From: an uncultured Bacillota bacterium
GTDB taxonomy: Bacteria > Bacillota_I > Bacilli_A > Culicoidibacterales > ZOR0006
Length of the DNA stretch: 38,270 bases
Direction of reading: 5' to 3'
Assembly: GCA_945956935.1 (NCBI GenBank)
Contig: CAMFJD010000016.1
Coordinates: 1 to 38,270, forward strand
The notes under the pieces: generated by a model
What the model was told of the DNA's origin: nothing
The model's database searches: none
The model's input: the letters and a program-made list of their open reading frames with translations, nothing else
In this document: positions 18,575 through 25,515 of the stretch, piece by piece
Layout: each line of letters begins with the position of its first letter
Numbering within the stretch: the stretch's first letter is position 1
Program-made: the position numbers and the translations under genes

Positions 18575-19543
18575 GTGATTCGCATATATCATCCAAGTGT
18601 TTTTCAAGGAAGCGATAAAAGAAACCCTTATTTTGAAGGATGGTACTGTAAGTGTATTGATAAGGACCAAGCGATTCAATTCGCAGTCATTTTTGGTTTT
18701 TCATTTGATATAGAACAAAGCCATGCTTTTATCCAGTTTATTGATGGGAGCGATGGTGAAACAGAATATCAAGTGTATCCGATGACAGATACGTATATAA
18801 GCAAAACAGCATTTCAAATCAAAATTGGAAACAATGAATTGAATGCATCTGGGTTGGTGTTAAATGAACAATTCACAAATGGAAAGTATTTAAACGTACA
18901 ACTGTATTTTGAACAACTTGAGTACTATCCTGTGACTGTGTTAAAACCAGGTATTATGGGACCGTTCAGATATGTGCCTTTCCTTGAATGCTATCATGCA
19001 ATCATCTCTTGTCGCCATAACATACATGGGGTGTTTACAATGAATGGTAAGACTAAACAACTCACAAACGCTATTGGTTATATGGAAAAGGATTGGGGTG
19101 TATCAATGCCAAATGCGTGGATGTGGAGTCAATCCAATCATCCAAAAACTGAAGAACAAAGTGATTACTTCTTATCAATTGCGAATGTACCACTCAAACA
19201 ATGGCAGTTTACTGGTTGTATTGGATATATACGTACAAAAGAAAGAATATACAATTTTAGTACATATACAGGTGTTCGTATCATGGCAGTGAATGATGAC
19301 AAGGAAATGAAGTCGCTTGTTCTCAGTGATTGTACATACATTTATCATTTTATTTTTTGGAATTTTGATGATATGGGTAATTTGAAAGCACCAAGTGAAG
19401 GCAGGATGTCAAGAACGATTGCTGAAACATTAGTAGCGTGTGCATCAGTAACGATTTACCACAAGCGTTCCCAATATGCGGTCTTTGATCAAGAGTATGA
19501 ATATGTTGGGTTAGAATGTGTAAGAATTCATGATTTAAAGTAA
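18575..19543 (+). CDS. Tocopherol-cyclase-like family protein
   Basis: A 322-aa protein with hallmark segments of the tocopherol cyclase-like family. The N-terminus has 'NPYFEGWYCKCID', the middle has 'IGYMEKDWGVSMPNAWMWSQSNH', and the rest is beta-rich (lipocalin-like two-barrel fold expected). In plants and cyanobacteria the enzyme closes the chromanol ring, but Firmicute members have no tocopherol pathway and their role is unknown. It starts with GTG behind AAGGAAGTGAG; no better ATG is near. No signal peptide or membrane segment is visible. It has its own -10 box. Confidence 0.75.
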   Translation: MIRIYHPSVFQGSDKRNPYFEGWYCKCIDKDQAIQFAVIFGFSFDIEQSHAFIQFIDGSDGETEYQVYPMTDTYISKTAFQIKIGNNELNASGLVLNEQFTNGKYLNVQLYFEQLEYYPVTVLKPGIMGPFRYVPFLECYHAIISCRHNIHGVFTMNGKTKQLTNAIGYMEKDWGVSMPNAWMWSQSNHPKTEEQSDYFLSIANVPLKQWQFTGCIGYIRTKERIYNFSTYTGVRIMAVNDDKEMKSLVLSDCTYIYHFIFWNFDDMGNLKAPSEGRMSRTIAETLVACASVTIYHKRSQYAVFDQEYEYVGLECVRIHDLK

Positions 19544-21588: not shown

Positions 21589-21918
21589 ATGATGTGGAAT
21601 CAAAAATGCCATCAATTTCTTGGTCTCGCAATGAGCGCGGGGAAAGTATTGTCTGGTGAAGAAATTGTTCTTTCCGGTGCGAAAAGCAAAAAAGTAAAAT
21701 TAGTATTACTAGCAACAGATGTTGCCAAAAATAACCAAAAAAAAGTAACGAATAAGTGTCAGACATATGGTGTGCCACTTCTACAAGTTGCTACAACAGC
21801 TGAACAATCTTTAGCAATTGGCAAAGCCAATCGTGTCGTAATCGGAATTACTGACAATGGATTTGCAAAAGGCTTTAAAGAGCGTTTAACGAAGGTGGAA
21901 GAAAAAGATGAAAACTGA
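21589..21918 (+). CDS. ylxQ: L7Ae/L30e-family ribosomal protein (YlxQ)
   Basis: A 109-aa protein of the L7Ae/L30e/S12e/Gadd45 kink-turn-binding fold, at the conserved YlxQ position between ylxR and infB. Typical features are 'FLGLAMSAGKVLSGEE', 'LVLLATDVAKNNQKKV' and 'GVPLLQV'. It probably binds structured RNA such as k-turns. The RBS lies in the end of ylxR. It overlaps the next gene by 11 bp. Confidence 0.9.
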   Translation: MMWNQKCHQFLGLAMSAGKVLSGEEIVLSGAKSKKVKLVLLATDVAKNNQKKVTNKCQTYGVPLLQVATTAEQSLAIGKANRVVIGITDNGFAKGFKERLTKVEEKDEN

Positions 21919-22741
21919 AAAAATTCGTGTAATCGACTATGCAAAAAGTCGACAAGTACAAGCACGTGAAGTAATTGAGGCTGCTAAATCGCAAGGTCAA
22001 ATCATTAATGCAATGACACTAATTACATTCCGTGAAGCAACAACATTGGATGGAGTGCTGAATGAACGCATTGACAAAACTGAAACATTAGCTGATTTAT
22101 TTAAGCGCATTTTGCAAGAAAATATCCAGTTCCATAAAGATCGCCAACGTCGTCGTTTTGAGCGTATCGATGCGATGCGTGCAGCAGGATTACCAACTCC
22201 AAGACGTCAAAGTCGTAGTGATCGCGATCCAGTTGGTGGACCAGACCACTCTGAGCGTGGGACACGTGGTGATAATCGTCGCCCAAGACGACTAGGACCA
22301 GCTAATGAACAACGTGGAGGAGAGCGTCGTCAATATAATAATGACCGTCCACAACGTGATGGAGAGCGTCGTCAATATAATAGTGATCGTCCACAACGTG
22401 ATGGAGAGCGTCGTCAATACAGTAATGACCGCCCACAACGTGATGGAGAGCGTCGTCAATACAATAATGACCGTCCACAACGTGATGGAGAACGTCGTTC
22501 GTACAATAGTAATCGTCCACAACGAGATGGAGAACGCCGTTCGAACAATAATGACCGCCCACAACGAGGAGGAGAGCGTCGTTCGTACAATAATGACCGC
22601 CCACAACGTAGAGAAAAAACAGGCGTAAATCGTCGTTTGGAAGAGAAAAAACGTGATGCAGAACGTGACGCAGCTCGTGGAGGAAGACCACCAAAACGAA
22701 AAGGTGATCGTAAAGTAAAACAATTTAAAAAATCAGAATAA
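21908..22741 (+). CDS. Orphan IF2-N-like domain protein with Arg-rich 14-aa repeats
   Basis: A 277-aa protein I cannot match to a named family. Residues 1 to about 50 align with the N-terminus of the IF2 encoded downstream (shared EKIRV-x-x-YA, QAR-x-V, MTL). A helical stretch follows (50-95), then a disordered basic linker. About residues 135-240 hold some seven units of a 14-residue repeat ([14 protein letters not shown] type), ending in a Lys/Arg-rich tail. There is no GTPase domain. It overlaps ylxQ by 11 bp and precedes infB by 62 bp, so it is co-expressed with the translation machinery. Likely role: RNA or ribosome binding, by inference from the IF2-N domain and the RG-like tail. It probably arose by partial infB duplication. 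Confidence 0.75.
   Translation: MKTEKIRVIDYAKSRQVQAREVIEAAKSQGQIINAMTLITFREATTLDGVLNERIDKTETLADLFKRILQENIQFHKDRQRRRFERIDAMRAAGLPTPRRQSRSDRDPVGGPDHSERGTRGDNRRPRRLGPANEQRGGERRQYNNDRPQRDGERRQYNSDRPQRDGERRQYSNDRPQRDGERRQYNNDRPQRDGERRSYNSNRPQRDGERRSNNNDRPQRGGERRSYNNDRPQRREKTGVNRRLEEKKRDAERDAARGGRPPKRKGDRKVKQFKKSE
22312..22611 (+). repeat. 42-bp tandem repeat array in the orphan IF2-N gene
   Basis: About seven in-frame 42-bp units, each encoding a variant of R-P-Q-R-D-G-E-R-R-x-Y-N-N-D. Differences are mostly single bases. The same unit recurs in infB (23004-23390), in the same reading frame. Confidence 0.85.
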
Positions 22742-22803
22742 AAAGTGAATAACATTGAATTGTAAAAAATACAGTTCAAAAATAATACGAGGTGAAATTT
22801 CAT

Positions 22804-25515
22804 ATGACTGAAAAAATTCGTGTGCGCGAGTACGCAGAACAAAATAATTTACAAGCCCGTGACGTGGTTTCAATTGCCCGCCAACTTAATATGAATGTTA
22901 AAAACATTATGACGCTTTTAACACCACAAGAGGTAGACCAATTGAATGCAAAAAAACCAGAATTTAAAGCATTATTAGAAGCAAATGCAGAACGTCGTAA
23001 TAATCGTCCACAACGTGATGGAGAGCGCCGTCCGTATAATAATGACCGCCCACAACGTGATGGAGAACGTCGTTTTAACAACAATGGACCCCGTCGTCCA
23101 TTGCCATCAGCTGGTGAACGTTTAGAGCCACTTGAGGCACCAGGAGAACGTCGTCCATATTATAACAATAAAACACGTGGAATTACTGATGGTGAGCAAC
23201 TACCAAATTCATATCGTGCAATGCCAAAACGACCAGAACGTCGTCAATATAACAATGATCGTCCACAACGTGATGGAGAGCGTCGTCAATATAACAATGA
23301 TCGTCCACAACGTGATGGAGAACGCCGTCCGTATAATAATGACCGCCCACAACGTGATGGAGAGCGTCGTTCATATAACAATGATCGACAAGGCGGACAA
23401 GGTCGTTATAACAACAACGATCGCGGAGGAAACCGCCAAGGTGGACAAGGTCGTTATAACAACAACGATCGCGGAGGAAACCGTCAAGGGAATCAAGGTG
23501 GTGCAGGTCGTTTAGAACGTCAAATCGCTGATATTAAAACAGATGCACAAGCACAAGTAGCATTACGCGGTGAAGAGCGTCCACGTGTAAAGCGTGAGGA
23601 AAAAAATTGGATTGATGTTGTTACTGAACGCGAAGAAAAAAAATCAATCAAACAACGTAAAGACGAAGAGCGTCGTGAAATGCGTCGTCGTCAAAAAGAA
23701 AAACAACAAGAAGAGAACCGTCGTCGTCAAGAAGAGGCACGTAAAAACTCTGGACCTAAAGTAATTAAATATGTTGATACATTAACAGTTGGAGAATTCG
23801 CACATAAATTAGGAATTCAAGCAAGTGAAATTATCAAATATTTATTATTAGAATTAGGAATCATGGCTACGTTAAATCAAGAATTAAACGAGGAAACAAT
23901 TGAGTTATTAGCATCAGAACATAATGCAGTTGTTGAACGTGAAGTATCAACAGATGCAACAGACCTTGATAAATTCTTCGAAGAAGTTGAAGGTGCAGTT
24001 TTAGCAACTCGTCCACCAGTTATTACAATTATGGGACATGTTGACCACGGAAAAACAACGTTATTAGATACAATTCGTAATACGCGTGTTGTTGCTGGCG
24101 AAGCTGGTGGAATCACTCAGCATATCGGTGCATATCAAATTGAACATGATGGAAAACCTCTAACATTTTTAGATACACCAGGTCACGAAGCCTTTACAAC
24201 AATGCGTGCACGTGGAGCACAAGTTACTGATATTGCCATTATTGTTGTTGCAGCAGATGATGGTGTGATGCCACAAACAAGAGAAGCAATTGAGCATGCA
24301 CGTGCAGCGGAAGTTCCAATGATTGTTGCTGTTAATAAAATGGATAAACCAGGAGCAAATCCGGATCGAGTTATGCAAGAATTGGCTGAATTAAGTGTTT
24401 TATCTGAAGCGTGGGGTGGAGATACAATCTTCGTTCAAGTATCAGCAAAAGCAAATACAGGAATCGATGAATTATTAGAAATGATTCTGTTAACAGCTGA
24501 AGTAAATGAATATAAAGCAAATCCGGATCGTTTAGCAGTCGGAACAGTAATTGAAGCGCGCTTAGATAAAGGACGTGGACCGGTTGCTACGTTATTAGTA
24601 CAATCTGGTACATTACGTGTTGGAGATCCAGTTGTAGTTGGGAATACATATGGACGCGTACGTACAATGGAAGATGATTTCGGTACACGTTTAACTGAAG
24701 CAGGACCATCAACGCCTGTTGAATTAACAGGTTTAGTTGGAGTACCGGCAGCTGGTGATAAGTTTGCTGCATTTGATAATGAAAAACAAGCTCGTCAAAT
24801 CGGTGAAGAACGTGCGAAAATGGCATTAGTGCAACAACGTTCTGCTTCATCAGCAATGAGCCTTGAAGATTTGGCACAACAAATCTTAGAGGGTGATATT
24901 AAAGAAATTAATGTAATTGTGAAAGCAGACGTACAAGGTTCTGTTGAAGCAGTTGTTGGATCATTTAATAAGATTGATGTAAATGGTGTACGTGTTAAAA
25001 TTATTCGTTCAGGCGCAGGTGCAATTACTGAATCTGATGTAACATTAGCAATGGCTTCAAATGCAATTGTTTATGGATTCAACGTTCGTCCAGATGCAAA
25101 AACACGTGACTTTGCTGAACGTGAAGGTGTATCGATTCGTCTACATAACATTATCTATAAAGCAATTGAAGAATTAGAAGGAATGATGCACGGAATGTTA
25201 GATCCAGAGTTTGAAGAAAAAATTCTTGGTCAGGCAGAAGTTCGTCAATTATTCAAAGTTTCTAAAGTTGGAACAATCGCTGGATGTATGGTTACAAGCG
25301 GAACAATTGAGCGTGATAGTATTGCTCGAGTTATCCGTGATGGAATCGTTGTATACGAAGGTAAGTTAGCTTCATTAAAACGTGAGAAAAATGATGCGAA
25401 AACAGTTGCTGCAGGATATGAATGTGGTATGATGTTAGAAAAATTCAATGACCTTAAAGAAGGAGATATCATTGAAGCTGCGAAACTTGAAGAGATTCAA
25501 CGTAAAGGGAAATAA
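22804..25515 (+). CDS. infB: Translation initiation factor IF-2
   Basis: A 903-aa GTPase that positions initiator tRNA on the 30S subunit. It has an IF2-N domain (1 to about 50) and a long Arg/Asn/Gly-rich disordered linker (about 60-300) with the 14-residue repeats and '[14 protein letters not shown]' units. A second IF2-N-like domain follows near 320-375, then the G domain with GHVDHGKT (411-418), DTPGHE (from 457), NKMD (from 511) and SAK (547-549). The C-terminal domains II, III and IV are complete. The frame opens at a GTG four codons earlier, but that overlaps the GAGGTGA RBS. The ATG at 22804 has 9-bp spacing and fits the family. Confidence 0.97.
23004..23502 (+). repeat. Repeat arrays in the infB linker
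   Basis: Two blocks of the 42-bp RPQRDGERR-type repeat (about 23004-23080 and 23238-23390) are separated by a non-repeated stretch. They are followed by two units of a '[16 protein letters not shown]' repeat (about 23390-23502). All are in frame. Confidence 0.85.

Follow-up and report, generated by a model that had tools for sequence, protein, structure and literature searches.

Why should a bacterium encode a free-standing protein with an IF2-type N-terminal domain directly in front of infB, the gene for IF2 itself? The question is posed by gene X of an uncultured Bacillota bacterium (assembly of 1.84 Mb), which we examined within a stretch of 38,270 nt (the window) where the plus-strand gene order is rimP-nusA-ylxR-ylxQ-X-infB-rbfA; of these names, rimP and rbfA were given by sequence. 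An earlier note on this DNA had reported a 277-aa gene between ylxQ and infB, and our analysis confirms it: X is co-directional with both neighbours, its start lies inside the end of ylxQ with an overlap of 11 nt, and 62 bp separate its stop from the infB ATG (Table 1). The GC3 of X, at 0.20, is similar to that of the neighbouring genes. The interval between X and infB holds no convincing terminator or promoter, pattern counts there being equal to those of shuffled controls, and an Rfam scan of the window matched no RNA element. Judging from the ylxQ overlap and the Shine-Dalgarno sequence, a single operon mRNA probably serves for the translation of ylxQ, X and IF2.

The X-infB gap (22742-22803) contains a short palindrome, TGAATTGTAAAAAATACAGTTCA. 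Its counterpart in Firmicutes bacterium ZOR0006, the only other species of the genus examined, is longer (∼113 bp); the hairpin there is a different one, and a TATAAT-like box is present. An RNA element was considered and rejected; the hairpins upstream of infB in the two species differ in sequence.

Table 1. Coordinates of gene X, its parts, its neighbours and its ortholog (window positions unless a contig is named)
Feature	Position	Strand	Description	Basis
ylxQ	21589..21918	+	L7Ae family	PF01248
Likely Shine-Dalgarno of X	21892..21898	+	AAGGTGG, 9 nt 5' of the X ATG	sequence
Gene X	21908..22741	+	277-aa stand-alone IF2-N protein, ATG start	ORF and sequence
IF2-N1-like domain	21908..22072	+	X residues 1-55	PF04760 match, identity to own IF2 N1, AlphaFold2 model, Foldseek
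Long basic helix	22088..22183	+	X residues 61-92 (32 residues); without counterpart in IF2	predicted helix in both models
Tandem repeats	22309..22609	+	42-bp unit, 7.2 copies, predicted disordered	TRF; pLDDT
C-terminal block	22610..22738	+	X residues 235-277; core RRLEEKKRDAERDAARGGRPPKRKGDRK	nearly identical in ZOR0006
infB Shine-Dalgarno	22789-22794		GAGGTG	sequence
infB	22804..25515	+	ATG 22804; 903-aa IF2: N1, repeat IDR, N2, G domain	Pfam
Partner repeats inside infB	22993..23387	+	same family as the X repeats	TRF (23235-23387); protein repeat search
ZOR0006 X ortholog	L008:6001-6498 and L017:6540-6770 minus		split over two contigs

The proposal that the first 50 residues of X mirror the N-terminus of IF2 was borne out. 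In the genome search the IF2_N family (PF04760) matches residues 3-48 above the cut-off, with 27.8 bits, and hmmscan of the full protein gives 24.3 bits (E 2.7e-5), just under the cut-off of 25.3; by BLASTP, this domain is 42% identical to N1 of the neighbouring IF2 (E 8e-10). A Pfam scan of all 277 residues finds IF2_N alone, the GTPase domain and domains II, C1 and C2 being absent, in agreement with the claim that X has no G domain, and an NCBIfam search returned nothing meaningful. The sole match in a sequence search for a solved relative, a pentatricopeptide repeat (E 0.038), was judged spurious.

Prediction of the fold, with superposition on IF2-N, had been suggested as a check, and the model did superpose on an IF2 N-domain. 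The AlphaFold2 model of residues 1-126, built on an alignment of nine rows and taken as the basis for N1, has a mean pLDDT of 77 (about 79-91 over residues 1-50) and is predicted to run strand-helix-helix-strand-helix over residues 5-55, followed by a helix at 61-92. The closest Foldseek match is 7UIU, in which IF2 N2 is bound to the 30S subunit; 48 columns superpose at 1.3 A. Matches to IF2 N-domains have probabilities of 0.97-0.98 yet weak E-values of 0.3-0.8, the fold being about 50 residues long. Foldseek also returns MerR/RacA-type winged helices with a long helix after them (E 0.27 or weaker), a likeness at the level of fold only; no Pfam helix-turn-helix family matches X. The N1 fold of the full-length model differs, is of low confidence and comes from an alignment of three rows only, and was set aside. 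Q16-V17-Q18 of X aligns with GIQ of its own IF2 N2 and with S277-V278-K279 of Pseudomonas aeruginosa N2, which are h16-contacting residues, and the h16-contact lysine is not retained in X.

Two further parts of the protein, both missed in the earlier note, are the basic helix and the block that begins at residue 235. The best conserved part of X is the helix plus the beginning of the linker after it (GLPTPRRQ...DRDPVGGP), and this region includes 18 consecutive residues, LFKRILQENIQFHKDRQR, that are identical between the two species. Residues 237-256 are modestly helical in the full-length model. Homology of the C-terminal block to the end of the IF2 linker seemed possible by eye and found no support on testing. 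The whole protein has a pI of 11.2.

Between helix and block lie the repeats, where the expected seven or so units were recovered as seven GERR units. The full-length model has pLDDT <50 over residues 127-237, which are thus predicted to be disordered. The description of this tail as RG-like was inaccurate: X has 14 RR dyads against only six RG/GR dipeptides in its 277 residues, the tail is of an Arg-Arg/GERR type, and a test for clustered RGG/RG motifs was negative. In each of the two genomes of the genus, a protein repeat search places the family in X and infB alone, and none of it was found in the sister-family genomes. The X units have a pN/pS of 0.29 among themselves, consistent with selection acting on the repeat as protein. 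Over the eight-codon cores, X and infB of the window differ at 0.085 per site and the X genes of the two species at 0.147; this is suggestive only of later homogenisation of the X and infB repeats, because the units are few and short.

In IF2 of the sister family (L015, L016, L019) the long linkers are built from repeats that are quite different (GGYQGNRDGGNRQG; QQGGYQNRPAGQP), and one sister-family infB is split over two contigs within its own, different repeat. Repeat-rich IF2 linkers of this order therefore change quickly in evolution and break assemblies.

Is X anything other than an accident of one strain? ZOR0006, a cultured isolate from the zebrafish gut, is placed by NCBI in unclassified Bacillota, and the order may be Culicoidibacterales. 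Its X ortholog is found at the corresponding position, the 11-nt overlap with ylxQ and the AAGGTGG are unchanged, and the two proteins are 73-75% identical over residues 1-96. The ZOR0006 gene leaves one contig inside the repeats, and its C-terminal block opens the end of the contig that bears infB; the two contig ends have 42 identical bases in common, and the open reading frame is very probably whole across the break. Thus the supposition that close relatives might have no homologue did not hold, and a search of relatives for X beside infB, as had been proposed, was answered in part: X is conserved within the genus, in two species, and reaches no further. The two sister-family genomes of the same order have ylxQ followed directly by infB and no X. 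Searches with the N-terminal part, with a two-row profile and with the helix only revealed no other clear X in 60 relatives, 295 genomes of the phylum and 395 of the class (overlapping samples), so that X is present in 2/395 class genomes. Weak matches in G222 and G086 contain two internal stops and one, respectively, and were taken as noise. A mobile origin was likewise rejected, as collections of phage, plasmid and viral contigs returned no relative.

Substitution rates between the two species, at a dS of about 1, indicate that the X ortholog is under purifying selection. The dN/dS of about 0.14-0.22 (about 0.22 for residues 1-47 and about 0.14 for residues 48-96) is comparable to that of ylxR and infB N1, and its lowest value lies in the helical part that has no counterpart in infB. 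For dN, X gives 0.226 over residues 1-47, 0.132 over residues 48-96 and 0.278 in the linker, compared with 0.215 for ylxR, 0.162 for infB N1 and 0.047 for the infB core. The low dN, the identical helix residues and the repeat pN/pS together exclude a recent broken copy of infB, and the ortholog under purifying selection led us to reject a broken or strain-specific copy, an outcome that the earlier note had allowed for.

Where, then, did X come from? Its N1 shares 40-42% identity with the IF2 N1 domains of the genus itself and 23-29% with that of sister-family IF2. In a tree of 54 columns, which settles neither the timing of the X-infB split nor the node at which X joins IF2, the X proteins of the two species form one clade (support 96/99); the duplication therefore predates the two species. 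These sequences are most simply read as a partial duplication of the infB 5' end, after which the repeats were homogenised: N1 and the Arg-rich repeat linker would have been duplicated in an ancestor of the genus, and the copy, bearing a long basic helix absent from IF2, has since been kept by purifying selection. Our conclusion is that X is in all likelihood a partial IF2 paralogue under purifying selection, and it is best called a GTPase-less one.

What such a protein does is a question on which we commit ourselves only tentatively. The role of IF2 N1 and the disordered linker is itself unsettled between NusA coupling, 30S recruitment and cold condensates. The Domain-I part of IF2 has been associated with faster recruitment to the 30S subunit, with N2 on h16 (PMC13345285, PMC9192638), truncation of N1 slows recruitment of IF2 to the 30S pre-initiation complex (PMC13345285), and the N-terminal IDR of IF2 drives RNA-dependent, cold-enhanced condensation (PMC11838494). 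The reading that we lean towards, and hold with slightly less than even confidence, is that X is a GTPase-less accessory of IF2 that binds RNA or the 30S subunit and co-assembles with IF2. N1 and the basic helix would dock on the 30S shoulder and 16S rRNA, or on an N1 partner; the repeats, of the same kind as in the IF2 linker, would permit co-assembly with IF2 on RNA; and this might raise local IF2 near 30S subunits, perhaps in cold stress or ribosome maturation. We favour co-assembly because the repeats are common to X and IF2, and the conservation of the basic helix suggests that X has a ligand of its own, probably rRNA or a 30S protein. The fold match to 30S-bound N2, and the presence of Q16-V17-Q18 where N2 of P. 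aeruginosa touches h16, also speak for it. This accessory reading draws on two species only, in one of which X is split over contigs, and the likeness of the X and infB repeats could be the product of gene conversion without functional meaning, which counts against it. The weak Foldseek E-values, the nine-row alignment behind the model, the loss of the h16-contact lysine and a tree that does not date the X-infB split weigh on the same side. More doubtful is the stronger form, a dedicated trans-acting IF2 N-domain protein, in which a separate, co-expressed Domain I scaffold, its repeats evolving together with those of IF2, would steer the gathering of IF2 on RNA and 30S subunits.

The same resemblance to IF2 could serve an opposite end. 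X has the N1 fold and the repeats of IF2 without its G or C domains, and it sits upstream of and adjoins infB; translated from the shared mRNA shortly ahead of IF2, it might occupy the 30S or RNA sites of the IF2 N-domain and so damp initiation or titrate partners of IF2, a notion with which the slower recruitment of N1-truncated IF2 (cited above) would be compatible. We consider such a decoy unlikely: the most conserved part of X is a helix absent from IF2, which pure mimicry would not need, and in Escherichia coli the main anchor of IF2 on the 30S subunit is N2, not N1.

We regard as improbable a role as transcription-translation adaptor, in which X N1 would bind NusA and the tail nascent RNA, as isolated Domain I of E. 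coli IF2 does. That isolated domain suffices for NusA binding (PMC12297416), and nusA lies in the same gene string as X. However, in E. coli the contact is predicted to involve NusA KH2 and AR1 (PMC12297416), and the window NusA (352 aa; NusA_N, S1 and KH matches only) ends after KH2. Its lack of AR domains makes a NusA role less likely for X, and the IF2 N-terminus and the NusA C-terminus are both not conserved (PMC12297416).

We give a little less weight still to the suggestion that the basic helix and C-terminal block let X bind RNA or DNA independently of IF2, for instance as a ribosome-assembly factor. Conservation is higher in the helix and the PVGGP linker than in N1, the pI is high, and there are the weak fold matches to winged helices of the MerR/RacA type that continue into a long helix; against this, X has kept the N1 core and the IF2-type repeat, and Pfam gives IF2_N alone. 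That X is a slowly decaying, functionless relic or a selfish repeat expansion of infB would agree with its restriction to one genus and with the likeness of the repeats within one genome, and is very improbable given the open frame, the conserved start overlap and Shine-Dalgarno sequence, the low dN/dS, and the conservation of the unique helix and C-terminal block.

X is of interest as a natural version of the debated IF2 fragment, cut loose, joined to a conserved helix and selected beside infB. It offers a natural separation-of-function system, as the ligands of X should reveal the function of Domain I, and the repeats common to X and IF2 make homotypic IDR-IDR assembly testable.

Set beside known systems, X most resembles Domain I of bacterial IF2-alpha, in which a long linker, basic and disordered, comes after the N1 fold, and the genus's own IF2 bears the same repeat; it differs in being its own gene without the N2, G and C domains, and in adding the basic helix and its own C-terminal block. 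Internal starts in infB, which yield IF2 beta and gamma, likewise shift the balance between IF2 that contains Domain I and IF2 that lacks it; X is the reciprocal product, Domain I alone, from a separate gene. Like RGG/RG-repeat RNA-binding proteins, X is Arg-rich, basic and predicted to be disordered, but its RG/GR dipeptides are few and its units carry RR dyads. In the open-access literature we found no stand-alone IF2 Domain I gene, most subscription papers lying outside that search.

IF2_N also occurs outside IF2 in other families of the class, where it heads proteins of 313-395 aa (L038:1477-2661, L048:1501-2439 and L049:1489-2445) whose remainder resembles, by eye, the N-lobe of glycogen/starch synthase (glycosyltransferase 5). 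Unlike X, these fusions lie far from infB, have an enzyme-like domain and contain no Arg repeats.

Just upstream of rimP, at window positions 18575-19543, we also observed a gene for a tocopherol-cyclase-like protein of 322 aa (PF14249, 41 bits), which is not expected in a Firmicute; ZOR0006 has a similar open reading frame at the matching place (L008:2671-3645).
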